Shown here: positions 31,270-62,949 of the stretch, in pieces
Layout: each line of letters starts with the position of its first letter
Numbering within the stretch: position 1 is the first letter of the stretch
Source of the DNA: Cellulophaga sp. RHA19
GTDB lineage: Bacteria > Bacteroidota > Bacteroidia > Flavobacteriales > Flavobacteriaceae
DNA length: 64,000 nucleotides
Reading direction: 5' to 3'
Assembly: GCF_002813425.1 (NCBI RefSeq)
Contig: NZ_PHUL01000001.1
Span: 992,001 to 1,056,000, forward strand
Translations under genes and position numbers: made by a program
Notes under the pieces: model-generated
The model's database searches: none
Seen by the model: the letters and a program-made list of their open reading frames with translations, nothing else
What the model was told of the DNA's origin: nothing

Positions 31270-31295
31270 TGAAAGAAAAACCTTTATTTAAAGGT
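31270..31295 (-). terminator. Terminator of the propeller regulator gene
   Basis: On the minus strand ACCTTTA, two-base loop, TAAAGGT (31295-31280) followed by TTTTTCTTT. The stem overlaps the stop codon of the regulator gene at 31284. Confidence 0.55.
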
Positions 31296-34049
31296 GATTA
31301 AGAAGTTAGATATGTTTTCTGAACTGTCTATGTTTAACTTTTTACGTAAACGGTAACGATGTATTTCTACACCTCTAATTGTAATGGCCATTAATGGCGC
31401 TATCTCTTTGGTAGACAGGTTCATTTTTAAATAAGCACACAATTTTAAATCTTTAGGAGTTAACTTAGGGTATTGTTTAAGTAAGTTTTCAAAAAAGTCG
31501 CTATGTAACTCTTTAAAATTCATTTCAAAACGTTTCCAATCCTCTTTATTGTTAACAGAATTGTTTAACCTTTTCATAAAAGATTTATAACGTTGTTGGT
31601 TAGGGAACTTATCTTTATTTTGAGTTAGTAAGTTTTTAAGATCAAGAATTATCTCGTTCTTTTTGGCAATATTAAGTGTGGTATTAGCTAACTCTTTTTG
31701 TTTAAGTTTTATTTCTTTAGCTAGCTTTTCCTTTTCTAAAAGCGCAATTTTTTCATCTTGTTCATGCTGCAAGCGTTCCTTTAGCTTATTATGCTTTATA
31801 TTTAGCTTATACTTATTATATTTTCTGATAAGAATTACGCAGACTATAGTTAGTAAAAAGTAAATTAATATTGCGGGACCAGATAAGTACCAAGGTGCTT
31901 TTATAGTAAAGTTGATGTTATTTGGAACCGATTTTTTATTATCTATACCAACACCAAATACTTCTAAAGCATAACTACCGTAGCCTAAATTTTGAAATGA
32001 TATAAGTCCGTTATTTAGCTCTGCAAACTGCGCATCCTTACCATTTAAACTATAATAGTACTTTGGATGCATTATGCCCGAAGATGCAATTTTTACAGTA
32101 ATGTTACGAGAATCTTTATAAGGTAAAGTTATACTTTTTGTGTGTATTGGGTAGCTATTTTCCTTACCATTAAAACTAATTAGTTTAGGAACTGGCAACC
32201 TGTTGTTATCTTTTAATTGGTTGTTTAGCTTGTTAAAGTTTATTTGACTGTAACCGTCTACTAAAGTAAAATAAAATGTAGAGTCGTTTACTTTTATAAT
32301 GTTTTCGGCTTCAGGAATTATACGTTTTTTTAAGCTTTGGTTTTCAATAATAATATTGTCTTCCTTAAAGTTGGTATAAGTAATTTTTTTACTGTTTTCG
32401 TTATCTATAAACCAAAAGTGATCATTGTTGTAATACAACAGCTCATTGTTTTTAAAAGAACTAAACTCTTCTAATGTTACAATTTTGTCTAAAATAGGAT
32501 CGTACTTATACCAATTTCCTTGACTGTAAAATACAATCTGGTTTTTAATATTGTATAGCTTAACATTGTATTTGTTAGGTGCGTCTTGTCCGTTATACTC
32601 TTTAGTACTAATTACAGAGTCGTAAGTACTGTTTAGTTTAAGTTTATAAAAACCTTTATATGGGTGTGCAACCCAAAGCGTTTTATCATCTTCAAAACAC
32701 AATTTTTTAACAGGTAAATTAAAACCTTTAAGTCTTTCTACAGACCATTGGTTGTCATTATCCTTACTATATTTTGCTATACCTGTATAAGTGCCTTGTA
32801 AAAAGGATGACTTATTCTCTGGTATTTTTTCTATTTGATAGCCTCCAGAAATAGTAGATACTTTAACCGAGCCATCTTTATTTAACTTAAACGTTCCTGT
32901 GTTATGTCCGCAAAAAAGTTCATTGTTAACAACGGCAATATCCCAGACGTGACCTTGAGTTCCTTTAACAAAATGCAATACATCATTATCTACATAATAT
33001 AAGCCCGTATTAGAACCTAAGTATACTTTATTATTGTACAAGGCAATATCGTAAACAGTACCTAAAACACCTGTAAAATCTGTATAATAAGTAACTGCAT
33101 GATCTAATTGTATATGGTCTATTCCGTTATCTAAACCAAGCCAAAGTTGATTTTTATAAGGAACCATAGATAAAATAGTGTTATTTTGTAACCCTACTTC
33201 ACGGTTAATGCTTTTGTAGGTTTTAGTGTGGTTATCGTATAAAAAAAGTCCGTTTTTTATGGTGCCAAAAGCAATTTTATTTTGATTTAATACTATTATT
33301 TTATTTAACTGATGTTGTTTTAATGTGTCGTTAATAGTGCTATTCCAAGTTTTAATTTCTTCATTCTTAATTATATAACAACCATTTAACTTAGTGCCAA
33401 TTAATAAACCTTCATTAGTAGAAGCCATATCTACTACAGTTTTATTTACAAAAGATATGTTGTTCTTTAGTACAAGAGGTTTTAGTGTGTCTCCTTTTAA
33501 ATAAAACAGCCCATCATCACCGCCAGCAACTATAATTTGGTTATTGTGTTTTGTAATGTTGTTTACTATAATATCAGCCTTAATTACTGTTATTTTATTG
33601 TCTTTGTAAACATATACTTTAGAGAAAGACCTAAATACAATAGCATCATTAAAAGGAATAATTTGCCAAAATTCTTCACTAGTAAATACGTGGTTTTTTA
33701 TAAGATGAGTTAATGATGTGTATTTTAAAACACCTAGGCTATCTTTTTCCCAAAATCCAAATTCTTCATAAGAACCTGTGTATACTTTATTATTAATACA
33801 GGCAACAGAGCGTATGGTAGTTTTACTAGGCAAGGTGTTAAGTTTCCACTCCTCACCATTAAAGTGTAAAAGGCCTGCGTTGTTGGCAGAAAATAATTCG
33901 CCATCTTCATTGGTGGCTAACCCCCAATTTTTACTAGCGGCATTGTAATCAAATATTTTATAATTGTGTATTGGAGGAAAAAGATTTTGACCAACAATAA
34001 TGTAGCTACTAATAAAGAAAAGTAAAATAAGCGAGGTTAAATTTTTCAT
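31284..34049 (-). CDS. Propeller-sensor transcriptional regulator with LuxR-type HTH, no kinase
   Basis: A 921-residue membrane regulator. It has a signal peptide (1-20), about 620 residues of beta-propeller repeats (for example GLATNEDGELFSANNAGLLHFNGEEW, LWLGLDNGIDHIQ), a Y_Y_Y-type domain, a membrane helix (residues about 722-744), a long coiled coil (EKIALLEKEKLAKEIKLKQKELA) and a C-terminal LuxR-like HTH (about 860-915, LTPKDLKLCAYLKMNLSTKEIAPLM). No histidine kinase or receiver domain is present, unlike classical hybrid two-component sensors. It probably senses an oligosaccharide in the periplasm and controls the operon that starts 232 bases downstream. Confidence 0.85.
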   Translation of the reverse strand: MKNLTSLILLFFISSYIIVGQNLFPPIHNYKIFDYNAASKNWGLATNEDGELFSANNAGLLHFNGEEWKLNTLPSKTTIRSVACINNKVYTGSYEEFGFWEKDSLGVLKYTSLTHLIKNHVFTSEEFWQIIPFNDAIVFRSFSKVYVYKDNKITVIKADIIVNNITKHNNQIIVAGGDDGLFYLKGDTLKPLVLKNNISFVNKTVVDMASTNEGLLIGTKLNGCYIIKNEEIKTWNSTINDTLKQHQLNKIIVLNQNKIAFGTIKNGLFLYDNHTKTYKSINREVGLQNNTILSMVPYKNQLWLGLDNGIDHIQLDHAVTYYTDFTGVLGTVYDIALYNNKVYLGSNTGLYYVDNDVLHFVKGTQGHVWDIAVVNNELFCGHNTGTFKLNKDGSVKVSTISGGYQIEKIPENKSSFLQGTYTGIAKYSKDNDNQWSVERLKGFNLPVKKLCFEDDKTLWVAHPYKGFYKLKLNSTYDSVISTKEYNGQDAPNKYNVKLYNIKNQIVFYSQGNWYKYDPILDKIVTLEEFSSFKNNELLYYNNDHFWFIDNENSKKITYTNFKEDNIIIENQSLKKRIIPEAENIIKVNDSTFYFTLVDGYSQINFNKLNNQLKDNNRLPVPKLISFNGKENSYPIHTKSITLPYKDSRNITVKIASSGIMHPKYYYSLNGKDAQFAELNNGLISFQNLGYGSYALEVFGVGIDNKKSVPNNINFTIKAPWYLSGPAILIYFLLTIVCVILIRKYNKYKLNIKHNKLKERLQHEQDEKIALLEKEKLAKEIKLKQKELANTTLNIAKKNEIILDLKNLLTQNKDKFPNQQRYKSFMKRLNNSVNNKEDWKRFEMNFKELHSDFFENLLKQYPKLTPKDLKLCAYLKMNLSTKEIAPLMAITIRGVEIHRYRLRKKLNIDSSENISNFLITFK

Positions 34050-58259: not shown

Positions 58260-60158
58260 ATGAGTGACGCCATTAAGCACGAATGTGGAATTTCTATGAT
58301 TAGGCTGTTAAAGCCCTTAGAGTATTACAAAGAAAAGTACGGTACAGCTTTTTACGGAGTAAATAAAATGTATTTAATGATGGAAAAGCAACACAACCGT
58401 GGACAAGACGGTGCAGGGTTTGCCAGCATTAAGTTAGATATGAAACAGGGTGAGCGTTATATGAGTAGAGTACGTTCTGCTCAAAGTCAGCCAATACAAG
58501 ATATTTTTGCTCAAATTAATGACCGTATAAACTCGGCTTTACAAGAAAACCCAGAATATGTAGACAACGTTGCTTTGCAAAAAAAACATATACCTTATAT
58601 AGGAGAAGTTTTATTGGGGCACGTGCGTTATGGTACTTTTGGTAAAAACAGTATAGAAAGTGTACATCCGTTTTTAAGACAAAACAATTGGATGCATAGG
58701 AACCTTATTGTTGCAGGTAATTTTAACATGACAAATGTTAATGAGCTTTTTGACAATTTGGTGCAAATTGGTCAGCATCCAAAAGAAATGGCAGATACAG
58801 TAACTGTTATGGAAAAAATAGGTCATTTTTTAGATGATGCCGTAGCAAAATTGTACAAGCAAATTAAAAAAGAAGGATTTACAAAACTAGAGGCTTCACC
58901 TATAATAGCAGAGCGTTTAAACTTAGGTAAAATTCTTAGAAAAGCAGCTAAAAATTGGGATGGTGGTTACGCTATGTCTGGTTTGTTAGGTCACGGAGAT
59001 AGCTTTGTACTTAGAGATCCGGCTGGTATAAGACCTGTTTATTATTATAAGGATGATGAGGTTGTTGTTGTAGCATCAGAAAGACCAGCAATACAAACCG
59101 TATTTAATGTTCCTTTTGAAGAAATTAAAGAATTAGATCCAGGACACGCACTTATTGTTAAAAAGAGTGGTAAAATGGATATAAAGCAAATACTAGAGCC
59201 AACAGAACGTAAAGCTTGTTCTTTTGAGCGCATCTATTTTTCTAGAGGTAGTGATAAAGAAATATACCAGGAACGTAAAGAATTAGGTAAATTACTTTTT
59301 CCACAAATATTAGAATCTATTCAGAACGATATTAAAAACACTGTTTTTTCATACATTCCTAATACTGCAGAAACATCTTTCTATGGTATGGTAAAAGAGG
59401 CTCAAAACCACTTAAACCGTAAAAAGGAAGAGCAAATACTATCAATAGGAAGAAAAATTACTTCTGAAGAGTTGCATGAAATACTTGAAGTTAGGCCACG
59501 TATAGAAAAAGTAGCGATTAAAGACGCTAAGCTTAGAACCTTTATTACGCAAGATAGTAGTAGAGATGATCTTGTAGCGCACGTATATGACATATCTTAT
59601 GGTTCTGTAAAAAAAGGAGATAACCTTGTTATTATAGATGATAGTATTGTACGTGGTACAACACTTAAAAAAAGTATTTTAAAAATACTAGATAGGTTGT
59701 TACCTAAGAAAATAGTAGTTGTTTCTTCTGCACCACAAATTAGATATCCAGATTGCTATGGTATAGATATGGCAAAACTAGAAGATTTTATAGCATTTAG
59801 AGCAGCGTTGGCATTACACCAAGATAAAGGCTCTATGGATGTTGTTAAAGGTATTTACGAAAAATGTTTAACGCAAGTAAATAAGCCAGACAAAGAAGTA
59901 ATAAACTACGTAAAAGAATTTTATAAGCCTTTTACAGCGAAAGAGATCTCTAAAAAAATTGGAGAATTGCTTAGTTCTCCAGAAATAAAAGCAGAGGTAG
60001 AAATTATATATCAAACAGTAGAAAGTTTACATGAAGCTTGTCCTAAAAATTTAGGAGATTGGTACTTTACAGGAGATTACCCAACTCCAGGAGGTAATAG
60101 AGTGGTTAACAGAGCTTTTATTAACTTTTATGAAGGTAAAAGTGAACGAGCGTATTAA
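58260..60158 (+). CDS. Amidophosphoribosyltransferase-like class II glutamine amidotransferase
   Basis: A 632-residue enzyme. The N-terminal nucleophile is C9 after a short propeptide (MSDAIKHECGI), followed by QHNRGQDGAGFASI and LLGHVRYGTFG of the glutaminase domain. The phosphoribosyltransferase signature VIIDDSIVRGTTLKKSIL is at about 457-474. It would make phosphoribosylamine from PRPP and glutamine, the first purine step. It is about 130 residues longer than the common PurF (about 500), with extra segments after residue 350 and at the C-terminus. Bacteroidota often carry such a long form beside a standard PurF. Confidence 0.85.
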   Translation: MSDAIKHECGISMIRLLKPLEYYKEKYGTAFYGVNKMYLMMEKQHNRGQDGAGFASIKLDMKQGERYMSRVRSAQSQPIQDIFAQINDRINSALQENPEYVDNVALQKKHIPYIGEVLLGHVRYGTFGKNSIESVHPFLRQNNWMHRNLIVAGNFNMTNVNELFDNLVQIGQHPKEMADTVTVMEKIGHFLDDAVAKLYKQIKKEGFTKLEASPIIAERLNLGKILRKAAKNWDGGYAMSGLLGHGDSFVLRDPAGIRPVYYYKDDEVVVVASERPAIQTVFNVPFEEIKELDPGHALIVKKSGKMDIKQILEPTERKACSFERIYFSRGSDKEIYQERKELGKLLFPQILESIQNDIKNTVFSYIPNTAETSFYGMVKEAQNHLNRKKEEQILSIGRKITSEELHEILEVRPRIEKVAIKDAKLRTFITQDSSRDDLVAHVYDISYGSVKKGDNLVIIDDSIVRGTTLKKSILKILDRLLPKKIVVVSSAPQIRYPDCYGIDMAKLEDFIAFRAALALHQDKGSMDVVKGIYEKCLTQVNKPDKEVINYVKEFYKPFTAKEISKKIGELLSSPEIKAEVEIIYQTVESLHEACPKNLGDWYFTGDYPTPGGNRVVNRAFINFYEGKSERAY

Positions 60159-60248
60159 TTACTATCGATGAAATACACTTAATTAGGTATTTTGTCGGTA
60201 ATATATGCGGTTTACCTTTTTTTATGCAGTTAAATGGGTGTCCATAGC

Positions 60249-60256
60249 TAATTTTG
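60249..60256 (+). promoter_or_regulatory. -7 box of small-RNA unit 1
   Basis: TAATTTTG fits TAnnTTTG and begins 12 bases before the conserved TACCAT of unit 1. Confidence 0.65.
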
Positions 60257-60258
60257 TG

Positions 60259-60336
60259 AATACCATAGCATAAGTAGGTTAAGTTCATGGTAAAATTTGG
60301 GGAAAAGGTGGAGGAAACTCCGCCTTTTTATTTTTT
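60259..60336 (+). ncRNA. Small RNA unit 1 of a four-copy array
   Basis: A non-coding unit of about 78 bases. TACCAT (60261-60266) pairs with ATGGTA (60287-60292), enclosing a loop that is identical in all four units (CATAAGTAGGTTAAGTT core). A linker AATTTGGGG leads to an intrinsic terminator: AGGTGGAG (60306-60313), GAAA loop, CTCCGCCT (60318-60325), T-run. It has its own -7 box. No ORF is present. It may belong to a known flavobacterial RNA motif, but I cannot confirm which. Confidence 0.75.
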
Positions 60337-60424
60337 ATAGGTTGTAGTTCATCGGATAAAATGTAGTTAAACTAATGAAACGGACGTTAATCCGATACTT
60401 TAGGAAGAACATACGAACTTAAGT

Positions 60425-60432
60425 TATCTTTG
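60425..60432 (+). promoter_or_regulatory. -7 box of small-RNA unit 2
   Basis: TATCTTTG fits TAnnTTTG exactly and begins 11 bases before the TACCAT of unit 2. Confidence 0.7.
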
Positions 60433-60433
60433 C

Positions 60434-60512
60434 TGTACCATAGCATAAGTAGGTTAAGTTCATGGTAAGATTTGGGGAAAAAGGTGGAGGAAACTCTACC
60501 TTTTTATTTTTT
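60434..60512 (+). ncRNA. Small RNA unit 2 of a four-copy array
   Basis: TACCAT (60436-60441) pairs with ATGGTA (60462-60467) around the invariant loop; linker GATTTGGGG; terminator AGGTGGAG (60482-60489), GAAA, CTCTACCT (60494-60501), T-run. Compared with unit 1 the 3' arm differs at two positions (CTCCGCCT against CTCTACCT) and both still pair by Watson-Crick or G-U, which indicates selection on structure rather than sequence. Confidence 0.78.
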
Positions 60513-60621
60513 ACTACTTTCCCAAAAAAATACTTTTTTATAAAAAATCTCTTCTAAAAACACTTAGTCTAATAAACTCTTTAGTTTACCTAATATTGTT
60601 TAGAGCACTATATAAATTATA

Positions 60622-60629
60622 TACATTTG
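60622..60629 (+). promoter_or_regulatory. -7 box of small-RNA unit 3
   Basis: TACATTTG fits TAnnTTTG and begins 12 bases before the unit. A TTG at 60596-60598 lies 23 bases upstream and could be a -33 element. Confidence 0.65.
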
Positions 60630-60630
60630 T

Positions 60631-60709
60631 TATCACCATAGCATAAGTAGGTTAAGTTCATGGTAAGATTTGGGGAAAAAGGCGAAGGAGACTTCGCCTT
60701 TTTATTTTT
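60631..60709 (+). ncRNA. Small RNA unit 3 of a four-copy array
   Basis: ACCAT (60635-60639) pairs with ATGGT (60660-60664) around the invariant loop; linker GATTTGGGG; terminator AGGCGAAG (60680-60687), GAGA loop, CTTCGCCT (60692-60699), T-run. Both arms differ from units 1 and 2 but remain complementary, and the loop stays of the GNRA type. Confidence 0.78.
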
Positions 60710-60913
60710 ACAAAATCTGCAATTTATTCTCCAAAATTTATTTATAACTCTCACTTAGTAAGGCTGTTTCCTTTTGCTTTCATTTTTTTTAATTTATTCC
60801 CCTAGTAATCCGATAGTTAAATGCGTATTGTTAAATTTAGTACAACTAAATGTTAAATTGTAAGAAATTATTTATTAATATTGTAATAACTAATAATCAA
60901 TAAATTTTTAAAA

Positions 60914-61810
60914 ATGAAAAACTTAAATTTAAAAAGGACCTATCTACTAGGTTTAACATTTGTTGCGGTTTTACAATCTTGTTCTAAAGACACAGATGTT
61001 GTAAATGCTGAAAATGAAACAGCAGAAGTTGAGCAGTTGGCAATTTCAGAATCTTTTGCAGATGAATTGCATGAGTGTGGTTATGTAGATGGTAACTGGA
61101 GTAGTACAGCTTTTTTAAGCAGTTCTATTGGTAGTACGTCAGAAACTAATTTTATGCAAACACAAAACTCTAAAATTGCTGCGGTTTGGGGTAGACCAGC
61201 AGTACCGCTTAGTTTTGTAAAAGATAATTCTAATCCTAATTCTACTTACAATGCTATATCTTATGGTAGCGGTAAAATTTATTATGGAGAAGCAATTTAT
61301 AATGCTGCAAAGGCTCAAGGTCAAATAGCTAACGTTATGATATTAGCTCATGAATTTGCTCACCAATTACAGTTTACTTACGGTTACCCGTCTAAAAACG
61401 AATCTACTGCAAGAGCAGCTGAGTTAGAGGCAGATGGTATGGCAGGTTACTACTTAAGAAGACCAAATGGGTATAATAAAACAAGCTTTTCTCAGATAGC
61501 AACTGCGTATGAGTTTGCTGCATCTATTGGAGACAATAATACAAGTAGCCCAGGGCATCACGGTCGTAATTACCAAAGAAGATCTGCTGTAAGGTTAGGT
61601 TTTTTACTTGGAGCTTATGATTTAAATGCGGGTAGTTTTGATTATAATTTCTTCTATTACTATAATGGAGTTTTAGACGGATCTTACAAGCAAGAAAAAT
61701 CTGAGTATTTTAATGCAGACTTAGATGCATACATTCGTTCTTATGCTAAAGAATTACAAAAAATTAGAAATGGTGAAATGTCTGATGAGGAATATTTTAA
61801 CCTAGATTAA
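60914..61810 (+). CDS. Lipoprotein zinc metallopeptidase (HExxH)
   Basis: A 298-residue lipoprotein (lipobox VLQSC, C23). The zinc site is HEFAH (146-150) with a downstream ELEADGMAGYYL (170-181), as in M48-like or YpfJ-type neutral zinc peptidases. The region between is QLQFTYGYPSKNESTARAA, typical of these families. It is surface or periplasm anchored and its substrate is unknown. It sits inside the small-RNA array and its terminator shares sequence with the unit 3 hairpin. No Bacteroidota promoter box was identified. Confidence 0.75.
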   Translation: MKNLNLKRTYLLGLTFVAVLQSCSKDTDVVNAENETAEVEQLAISESFADELHECGYVDGNWSSTAFLSSSIGSTSETNFMQTQNSKIAAVWGRPAVPLSFVKDNSNPNSTYNAISYGSGKIYYGEAIYNAAKAQGQIANVMILAHEFAHQLQFTYGYPSKNESTARAAELEADGMAGYYLRRPNGYNKTSFSQIATAYEFAASIGDNNTSSPGHHGRNYQRRSAVRLGFLLGAYDLNAGSFDYNFFYYYNGVLDGSYKQEKSEYFNADLDAYIRSYAKELQKIRNGEMSDEEYFNLD

Positions 61811-61913
61811 AAAATTAAGAACACTTACTTTAGTATAATTTTTTAATTGTTATTAAAATTTTAACAAAACTATGGGATTTTTGAGTTGAATTTCTAGTTG
61901 GTTTTTGAAGAAA

Positions 61914-61940
61914 AGGCGAAGGAAACTTCGCCTTTTTATT
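61914..61940 (+). terminator. Terminator of the metallopeptidase gene
   Basis: AGGCGAAG (61914-61921), GAAA loop, CTTCGCCT (61926-61933), T-run. Its arms equal those of small-RNA unit 3, but the conserved 5' hairpin of the array is absent upstream. It is either a degenerate unit or a shared terminator design. Confidence 0.8.
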
Positions 61941-62049
61941 TGCTTGTAATCAAGCCATTAGCGTGCATTTCATCGATAATATTTGCATATTTATGAATTA
62001 TTGTGTTATTTTTTTTGTCGTTTTTTTTTTTTATTAGACACAATACCAG

Positions 62050-62057
62050 TAATTTAG
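62050..62057 (+). promoter_or_regulatory. -7-like box of small-RNA unit 4
   Basis: TAATTTAG, one base off TAnnTTTG, begins 11 bases before the position that matches TACCAT in the other units. Confidence 0.5.
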
Positions 62058-62058
62058 C

Positions 62059-62140
62059 AAAGCCATAGCATAAGTAGGTTAAGTTTATGGTAAGATTTGG
62101 GACGAAAAGGGTAGAGATCTTCTCTGCCCTTTTCTATTTT
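62059..62140 (+). ncRNA. Small RNA unit 4 of a four-copy array
   Basis: CCATA (62063-62067) pairs with TATGG (62086-62090), a one-pair extension relative to the other units because C became T. The loop core CATAAGTAGGTTAAGTT is unchanged. The terminator is longer and different: GGGTAGAGA (62109-62117), TCT loop, TCTCTGCCC (62121-62129), with flanking AAAA/TTTT pairing. It is separated from units 1-3 by the metallopeptidase gene. Confidence 0.75.
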
Positions 62141-62165
62141 ATAGAATTAAGTAAATACAAAGCAT

Positions 62166-62202
62166 AAAAAAAGCCACTCTAAAACAAGAGTGGCTTTTAT
62201 AT
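62166..62202 (-). terminator. Terminator of the superoxide dismutase gene
   Basis: AGCCACTCT and AGAGTGGCT pair around a short A-rich loop, followed by T's on the minus strand, about 15 bases past the sod stop. Confidence 0.8.
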
Positions 62203-62217
62203 TTTAAATGTATTTCT

Positions 62218-62826
62218 TTACTTGTTGCTAGCGTAAAGTTCAGATACTTTATCCCAGTTAATTACATTAAAAAATCCTCCAATGTAATCAGGTCTTCTAT
62301 TTTGGTAGTTTAAGTAGTAAGCATGTTCCCAAACATCTAACCCTAAAATAGGAAAACCGCCACAACCAACTCCTGGCATTAACGGGTTGTCTTGGTTAGG
62401 AGAAGAACAAACTTCTACTTTACCTCCTTTTTGTACACACAACCAAGCCCAACCAGAACCAAATCTAGTTGCTGCTGCAGTAGAGAAAGCCTCTTTAAAA
62501 GCATCAAAAGAACCGTAAGCTTCATTAATAGCTGTTGCTAACTCGCCAGTTGGCTCGCCACCACCGTTAGGAGACATTACTTCCCAGAAAAGAGAGTGAT
62601 TGTAAAATCCACCACCGTTGTTACGTACAGCGCCATTGTTCATATCTAGGTTAGTTAAGATATCTTCAATAGATTTCCCAGCTAAATCTGTTCCTTCAAT
62701 AGCACCATTAAGTTTAGTTGTATATCCGTTGTGATGTTTTGTATGGTGAATCTCCATAGTTCTAGCATCAATATGTGGTTCTAACGCATCATATGCGTAA
62801 GGTAATTTTGGTAATTCAAAAGCCAT
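62218..62826 (-). CDS. sodA: Fe/Mn superoxide dismutase
   Basis: 202 residues from the ATG at 62826 ([20 protein letters not shown]); a longer frame from 62895 would include the promoter box. It dismutates superoxide in the cytoplasm. Metal ligands lie in [11 protein letters not shown] (H27), [11 protein letters not shown], and the C-terminal [20 protein letters not shown] (Asp, His). Whether it uses Fe or Mn cannot be told safely from these residues. Confidence 0.95.
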
Positions 62827-62864
62827 AATTATATCTATTTTTATGTTAAAAAAATGTCTTAGTT

Positions 62865-62872
62865 CAAATTTA
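62865..62872 (-). promoter_or_regulatory. Bacteroidota -7 box of the superoxide dismutase gene
   Basis: CAAATTTA on the plus strand reads TAAATTTG on the minus strand, fitting TAnnTTTG, 38 bases before the ATG at 62826. Confidence 0.55.
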
Positions 62873-62949
62873 CAATATTCTAAGGCATTTTCCATAACGT
62901 TTCTGTTAAGAACATTGTAATATTATGTAATTTGCAGCTAAAAACTAGT

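Follow-up and report, generated by a model that had tools for sequence, protein, structure and literature searches.

What function could be served by four near copies of one short sequence, each apparently equipped to be transcribed on its own, that follow one another between two conserved genes is the question raised by a locus of Cellulophaga sp. RHA19 (contig NZ_PHUL01000001.1, positions 992,001–1,056,000; this stretch of 64,000 nucleotides is referred to as the window, and the coordinates below are window positions). The four units, each of about 75 nt and all on the plus strand, lie between the genes for a PurF-like amidotransferase and a superoxide dismutase, and each opens, behind a Bacteroidetes-type −7 box, with a common 5′ hairpin, which the linker (R)ATTTGGGR joins to an intrinsic terminator. 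An earlier reading of the DNA alone (the sequence-only reading) had seen in them a multicopy small RNA (sRNA) family with individual promoters and terminators and a shared exposed loop, a proposal that the comparative data support. Computational analysis reveals a family with conserved synteny, promoter boxes, terminator covariation and conserved complementarity to the start of a candidate target gene, and its members are probably sibling trans-acting sRNAs, spread throughout the Flavobacteriaceae, that clamp and repress the start codons of type IX secretion genes.

The segment CCATAGCATAAGTAGGTTAAGTT is identical at 60263, 60438, 60636 and 62063, in agreement with the four copies originally described, and is followed within the units by TYATGGTAARATTTGGGR and then by a terminator whose sequence varies. 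A 22-base piece of the shared segment has four matches in the window (0.01 expected), and a 20-base core, searched with up to three mismatches, occurs in the 3.93-Mb genome only as the four array copies, while the spacers between units display no conservation from copy to copy. The −7 boxes, of the form TAnnTTTG (a near form in unit 4), end 5–6 bases 5′ of CCATAG in all four units and the four terminators could be mapped, which confirms that each unit has its own box and its own terminator. Terminator-like sites in the array region number nine against 0.9 expected, and the folding z-scores of the units range from −3.5 to −4.4. A scan with the sigma-70 consensus yielded no promoter excess (six versus 8.8 expected), which is what Bacteroidetes promoters would lead one to anticipate.

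Within the genus, three or four exact copies of the core are carried by 18 of 18 genomes, many neighbouring copies being about 200 bases apart; in two genomes (G014 and G015) the copies are divided between places of opposite strand. The search of the Flavobacteriaceae with a covariance model, envisaged in the sequence-only reading, was fruitful: with the model R1, for which 36 genus units served as the basis, matches at E ≤ 0.01 under strict filters were obtained in 248 of the 299 genomes of the family, and the best E value is below 1e-6 in 238 of the 299 (row count), the weaker matches including units with altered 5′ halves and probably chance matches. Of 395 genomes of the order, 65 match at 1e-6; 64 of these belong to the family, and the remaining one, from a different family, is a fragmented genome in which the PurF–sodA setting is retained. 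A pattern scan of named genomes returned at least 118 stretches, and the genera among the matches listed are Flavobacterium, Winogradskyella, Aquimarina, Algibacter, Tamlana, Salegentibacter, Lacinutrix, Formosa and Aequorivita. Among 60 family loci, the PurF-like gene was matched at 57 and sodA at 45, and among the 118 named loci listed at 100 and 93, respectively; the stretches fetched are short, so that a neighbour may be missed. In 146 PurF–SodA intervals that differ in sequence (one genome can contribute twice), all 331 units lie on the strand of the PurF-like gene and none on the other, with a median spacing of 213 bases; two intervals hold no unit, 42 hold one, 50 two, 25 three, 22 four, four five and one six.

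Conservation at the RNA level was assessed in a family alignment of the best 150 of 190 matches, which gave 129 distinct rows fitted to the model and in which 98.6% of the paired cells hold standard pairs. The covariation anticipated in homologues was found in the terminator, where 11 of 12 pairs change on both sides (none of 500 shuffles as high), but not in the 5′ hairpin, where this holds for none of 11 pairs in either the 36 genus units or the 129 distinct family units; a MAFFT alignment of the genus likewise gave both-sided changes in six of 12 terminator pairs and none of 11 first-hairpin pairs. The compensating extension previously attributed to the first hairpin of unit 4 proved to be a one-sided change, and the GNRA-type loop that persists in the terminators of units 1–3 is not kept in the wider genus. 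As for the shared single-stranded loop, an exposed loop is indeed predicted, but its extent is GUAGG, the apical loop of the 5′ hairpin, rather than 18 bases, since AGC/GUU and UAA/UUA pair inside.

Invariance was counted over 64 distinct rows from 33 sources, leaving out loci fetched by the full core pattern; this supersedes an earlier count over the 129 rows, many of which had been fetched by that sequence. GTAGG and ATTTGGG are invariant in all 64 rows, while the 5′ arm takes 11 forms, and in two representative units the predicted unpaired probability is 0.5–1.0 for GUAGG and 0.7–1.0 for the linker. Because loop and linker are invariant and predicted to be unpaired while the 5′ arm varies, conservation of the RNA falls on its exposed parts and on those of the 3′ stem side that could pair with a partner. 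The length of the linker differs by single bases between units (TAAGATTT, TAGATTT), which disfavours a coding role. A linker ATTTGGG as invariant as the loop, a locus fixed across the family and candidate targets that can be named all go beyond what had been proposed from the DNA alone.

A different 5′ half joined to the same ATTTGGGG linker and terminator is observed at 1842–2219 of locus L043 (also in L179) and in L089–L092, three such units standing in tandem inside one array, and at these loci the 5′ domain appears to be swappable on a constant 3′ module. The source genome contains 14 matches to ATTTGGGG..AAAA, three of them in the array, and the remaining 11 have, by eye, no terminator behind them.

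Among 415 distinct family units, TAnnTTWR is present within 25 bases upstream in 90% (10% when shuffled), starting mostly 13–14 bases 5′ of CCA. The element TTYRTCTRA is found at −65 to −30 in 31% of units (0% when shuffled), nearly always at −52 to −50, and the looser TTYRTC forms a second cluster 20 bases farther upstream, at −72 to −70; since the two clusters sit 20 bases apart, the paired elements suggest candidate tandem activator sites. TTCATC(TAAAA)-like elements about 50 and about 70 bases upstream, with a fixed 20-base offset, can be seen at many units (L033 and L180, for example). One copy per array in several genera carries another conserved promoter.

The complementarity that underlies the proposed mode of action concerns a gene for a PD40 protein, which stands first in a type IX secretion family locus of the order PD40–PorP/SprF(–SPOR)–LuxR-type response regulator; relatives of the gene at E ≤ 1.3e-119 are present in all 18 genomes of the genus. 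The PD40 start codon is flanked by conserved blocks that complement the two invariant elements of the sRNA, GUAGG and AUUUGGG: many of these starts have CCCC..ATC(TTA) before ATG and CCTAC after it, as in aaccccaaaatctttacactATGAGAAATACTTTTACCTAC and aatccccaaatccctatatcATGAAAAGTTTACTAGCCTAC, the reverse complement of the sRNA being CCCCAAATCTTACCATGAACTTAACCTAC. For the main set of 18 out of 28 loci, from which the near-identical L248–L251, L255–L257 and L264 and L259 and L261, whose starts are evidently wrong, were dropped, the mean duplex energy is −24.4 kcal/mol, compared with −15.5 (s.d. 1.3) for shuffled sRNA (none of 500 as good) and −11.9 kcal/mol for 250 other genes of the source genome. 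CCTAC is present in 11 of the 18 starts versus 12 of 981 own genes, and an upstream CCC in 17 of 18 versus 49 of 981. A wider set of 22, 19 and 18 loci (22 for PD40), obtained by name filter from 27 with five near-identical loci dropped and uncertain starts kept, gave a z-score of −6.2 for PD40 (none of 400 shuffles) and weaker values for PorP/SprF (−3.5, none of 400) and the response regulator (−2.4, five of 400), and neighbouring genes gave no comparable signal (−1.2, 50 of 400). ORF starts near PD40–OmpA paralogues with values below −19 seem to overlie the end of the upstream PorP/SprF frame and were not counted.

The codons themselves are informative. From 23 picks, 16 of which, some of them close relatives, enter the count (L374, a wrong gene, and L362 and L364, with uncertain starts, have no Tyr at this place and stand outside it), the Tyr codon near the PD40 start is TAC in 15 of 16, compared with 37% of control codons from the source genome, and the preceding codon is NCC in 11 of 16 versus 7 of 330, though the residue is Thr, Pro, Ser or Ala. 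Because TAC and NCC are kept while the residue before Tyr changes, the comparison points to conservation of the start block at the nucleotide level. The PD40 gene is the best-supported candidate target; weaker candidates are the two genes that come next in its locus, as well as the genes for an adhesin of 1491 aa and for a secreted protein bearing a type IX signal.

These last candidates emerged from the scoring of an even 30% sample of the source genome (981 genes, including those of the window). The best-pairing start is that of the 1491-aa secreted adhesin, encoded beside PorP/SprF and OmpA genes (−29.0), and as good a best match was obtained with one of 400 shuffled sRNAs and, with gapped duplexes, none of 40. 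Ranks 2 and 3 fall to neighbouring genes, one encoding a SPOR-domain PorP/SprF protein and the other a PD40 protein of 405 aa, and with gapped duplexes the top four are the adhesin, PorP/SprF-SPOR, PD40 and a protein with a CHU_C type IX secretion signal. The start region (tatatcccctATGAAAAATTTAACC) of a 921-aa ORF at 31284–34049 on the minus strand stands about eighth among the 981. The complement of the loop alone (CTTAACCTACTTATG, up to three mismatches) is uninformative, with 156 matches, four of which are the array, versus 145 for the reversed pattern.

Several results weigh against the proposed action on these genes, in addition to the absence of both-sided changes in the 5′ hairpin. By score alone ranks 2 and 3 are unremarkable (104 and 67 of 400 shuffles; 12 and 5 of 40), well-pairing starts among the 981 genes are in no excess over shuffles, with only rank 1 standing out, and three of 12 adhesin ORFs pair well, that of the source genome among them. 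A strict pattern has 27 matches outside the arrays of 18 genomes versus 33 for the reversed pattern, and thus no excess, the signal lying only in the eight of the 27 that fall on one orthologous start, that of PD40; in all, 20 of the 27 could be placed, and of these one is the start of another PorP/SprF gene, ten have frames of at most 41 codons and one, in G017, lies by its coordinates between two PD40-locus genes. Weak pairing or an uncertain start is seen in several orthologues of PD40 and PorP/SprF (L362, L364 and L371), the tests with shuffled sRNA overstate independence because orthologous starts share descent, and the codon control comes from the source genome only. The PD40 gene is full length in nine of 30 genomes of other genera, plus one shorter frame, and so cannot explain the conservation of the RNA; a 400-kb sample of an other-genus genome with the RNA but without the PD40 locus contained no target of the type IX secretion system (T9SS), its best start being that of smpB (three of 60 shuffles as good). 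Since many RNA-carrying genomes are without the PD40 locus and this sample is without a T9SS target, other conserved targets must exist. At G017:C5:371422–371435 (inside L363), CCCCAATCTTATGA occurs between the PorP/SprF and response-regulator genes, off the called start, and could mark a small ORF or an upstream site.

Transcription of the array RNAs, repression by them and a physiological role are what we infer from these comparisons, and the following sequence of events may be envisaged. Each unit would be transcribed from a housekeeping-type promoter of its own as far as its own terminator. The RNA would offer two single-stranded stretches for contact, GUAGG(UUAA) in the apical loop of the 5′ hairpin and GAUUUGGGG in the linker, which would pair with CCTAC about 17–22 bases after and with CCCCAAATC(TTA) about 5–18 bases before the target start codon, respectively. 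Loop and linker would touch the mRNA on both sides of the start codon first, after which the weak hairpin could open and UUYAU between the contacts could pair with AUGAA; the Y, a C in 43 rows and a U in 21 out of 64, can in either form pair with the G of AUG. With the start codon clamped in this manner, ribosome entry would most likely be blocked, and repression of a surface-secretion module would fit such a clamp. Extra copies with different promoters would raise the dose and let several signals feed one regulator.

Titration and protein-partner models of the kind established for CsrB and 6S RNA offer another view of a multicopy sRNA. The array could encode genuine sRNAs whose main partner is a protein, either an RNA chaperone or a titration target, with the complementarity to PD40 being minor or due to chance: multiple copies suit titration, the ATTTGGGG linker is kept in units with a different 5′ half (L089–L092 and three L043 units), as a protein site might be, and many genomes with the RNA have no PD40 locus. 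What a protein site would fail to predict, however, is that in several genera the start of one gene has the complement of both invariant elements around it at similar distances, with nucleotides kept while residues change, and this explanation is accordingly considered rather unlikely.

Whether the units belong to a known RNA family bears on a further explanation. No Rfam 15 family reaches its gathering score anywhere in the window and Flavo-1 is absent from the matches at E ≤ 10 for 60200–62200; of the two options entertained in the sequence-only reading, a new class thus keeps its place and Flavo-1 does not, the family being, by score, neither Flavo-1 nor another Rfam 15 family. The top match in a permissive scan of 60200–62200, STnc40 with 34.2 bits at 61864–61938, lies outside the units. 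Likeness of the units to STnc40 (RF02057) is weak and terminator-driven (33.7 bits on unit 3; gathering score 45), and STnc40 is enterobacterial and fits the 5′ part of the array unit poorly. The Rfam FopS model (RF04319) aligns UUCAUGGUA--AGAUUU of the unit with 22.1 bits (E of 0.083 over 86 bases and 1.9 over 2 kb), and UUCAUGGUA and AGAUUU, both in the Rfam FopS consensus, presumably lie in the published FopS seed; owing to this weak alignment, a seed over the start codon was considered. The FopS sRNAs of Bacteroides are described as multicopy and as pairing at susC starts, with an unstructured 5′ end, their 14 copies comprising nine intergenic, four antisense and one 3′ UTR-derived (PMC11697453). 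The FopS seed lies in this 5′ end, with the terminator behind it, and binding by RbpB is a further FopS trait.

The array units might, by this token, be distant FopS relatives that pair with SusC or TonB-receptor starts. The best score nevertheless stays below the FopS gathering score of 56 bits, and local similarity to the FopS seed, equalled by 118 and 165 of 5000 shuffles for the unit of the source genome and by 2593 and 2993 of 5000 for the commoner family form, is below significance, so that local alignment gives no clear support for homology. SusC targets, tried by analogy with FopS, were discarded, as 27 SusC starts of the source genome pair no better than 116 other genes (Mann–Whitney p of 0.76, with crude start calls), and descent from FopS with SusC-type targets appears improbable. 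Many of these SusC starts (L137–L163) have, by eye, a ACTAACTCAAA- or CTAACTTAAA-like sequence 15–30 bases before ATG, possibly a leader signal or the target of another RNA. FopS and GibS resemble the array RNAs in being sibling sRNAs of Bacteroidota that occur in several copies, have canonical promoters and end at an intrinsic terminator, and that act at the start codons of outer-membrane protein mRNAs. They differ in the mixed genomic placement of their copies and in an unstructured 5′ end, whereas the array occupies a single locus and each of its four units is predicted to form a 5′ hairpin with an exposed loop, although the pairs of this hairpin do not covary; moreover, the array RNAs have two predicted contacts flanking the start codon, and their candidate targets belong to type IX secretion and not to the SusC genes. 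That the units are a DNA repeat, a mobile element or terminator repeats instead of RNA genes, as high identity and tandem layout could suggest, is scarcely credible in view of the fixed locus and single orientation in 146 intervals, the individual promoter boxes, the compensatory terminator changes, the spacers that differ between copies and the lack of copies elsewhere in the source genome.

As an array of sibling sRNAs, the locus has parallels in LhrC of Listeria and Qrr of Vibrio, where near-identical sRNAs share a seed and are each furnished with a promoter and a terminator of their own. Several copies, a shared seed, and individual promoters and terminators are also found in the array, which differs from them in sequence, phylum and targets. 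For Flavobacterium psychrophilum, one study reports 85 new independent transcripts and a role for Rfp18 in protease expression (PMC9723704). Rfp18 is similarly a flavobacterial sRNA conserved in its genus, with secreted proteases and an adhesin as predicted targets, but it is described as pairing through a third stem-loop whereas the array RNA is predicted to have two; the array RNA could nevertheless be identical with one of the 85 (PMC9723704). No description of the family was found in the accessible literature on flavobacterial multicopy sRNAs, gliding and SprB, type IX secretion and PorP, or Zobellia, Gramella and Formosa, a coverage that most subscription journals lie outside.

The features of the locus are collected in Table 1. 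The ORF that separates units 3 and 4 was probably inserted into the array, because just seven of 28 genus loci carry a match to it. A terminator 3′ of this ORF (61910–61937, plus strand) displays 92% identity over 25 bases to that of unit 3, as if it were an array-derived copy, and an inverted repeat at 62169–62198, terminator-like on both strands, is located between unit 4 and sodA.

Table 1. Features of the sRNA array and its surroundings (window positions).
Feature	Position	Strand	Details
PurF-like amidotransferase gene	58260–60158	+	Conserved left neighbour; Pfam match is GATase_7/6, which we take to denote PurF
−7 box, unit 1 (TAATTTTG)	60249–60256	+	Read from sequence
sRNA unit 1	60262–60331	+	5′ hairpin 60262–60291, linker ~60292–60301, terminator 60302–60329; 87.9 bits with model R1, itself seed
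−7 box, unit 2 (TATCTTTG)	60425–60432	+	Read from sequence
sRNA unit 2	60437–60507	+	Terminator 60478–60505; 94.6 bits with model R1, itself seed
−7 box, unit 3 (TACATTTG)	60622–60629	+	Read from sequence
sRNA unit 3	60635–60705	+	Terminator 60676–60703; 94.2 bits with model R1, itself seed
298-aa lipoprotein-like ORF	60914–61810	+	HEFAH zinc-protease-like motif (by eye); no Pfam match
Unit 4 promoter region (acacaataccagtaatttag)	62038–62057	+	Separate conserved type, −7-like TAATTTAG at 62050–62057; a nearly identical sequence precedes one copy per array in members of the genus and in L033, L041, L043
sRNA unit 4	62062–62135	+	Terminator 62104–62134; 90.0 bits with model R1, itself seed
Fe/Mn superoxide dismutase gene (sodA)	62218–62895	−	Conserved right neighbour; Pfam Sod_Fe_N/C

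About four fifths of the family genomes that were searched contain a match to the RNA, which has one to six copies at a single locus in nearly all the intervals compared, and, within the literature surveyed, few flavobacterial sRNAs have been described and fewer still have a tested target. In its fullest form, which is put forward tentatively and may well prove too ambitious, the picture would be that of a core Flavobacteriaceae regulator outside Rfam, in which the siblings of the purF–sodA locus grip the mRNA on both sides of the start codon and set the level of a type IX secretion or surface-adhesin module, with copies under different promoters (many with a TTCATCTAAAA-like element at about −50, often also at −70, and one type with ACAATACCAGTAATTTAG) summing environmental signals, and with a possible shared ancestry with FopS. 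If that ancestry were true, start-codon clamping of outer-membrane genes would be an old theme of the Bacteroidota. The family comes with a precise and testable pairing with type IX secretion genes; if the clamp itself is true, it would add a new family to Rfam and open surface protein secretion to post-transcriptional control in bacteria that form a major group in sea and soil.

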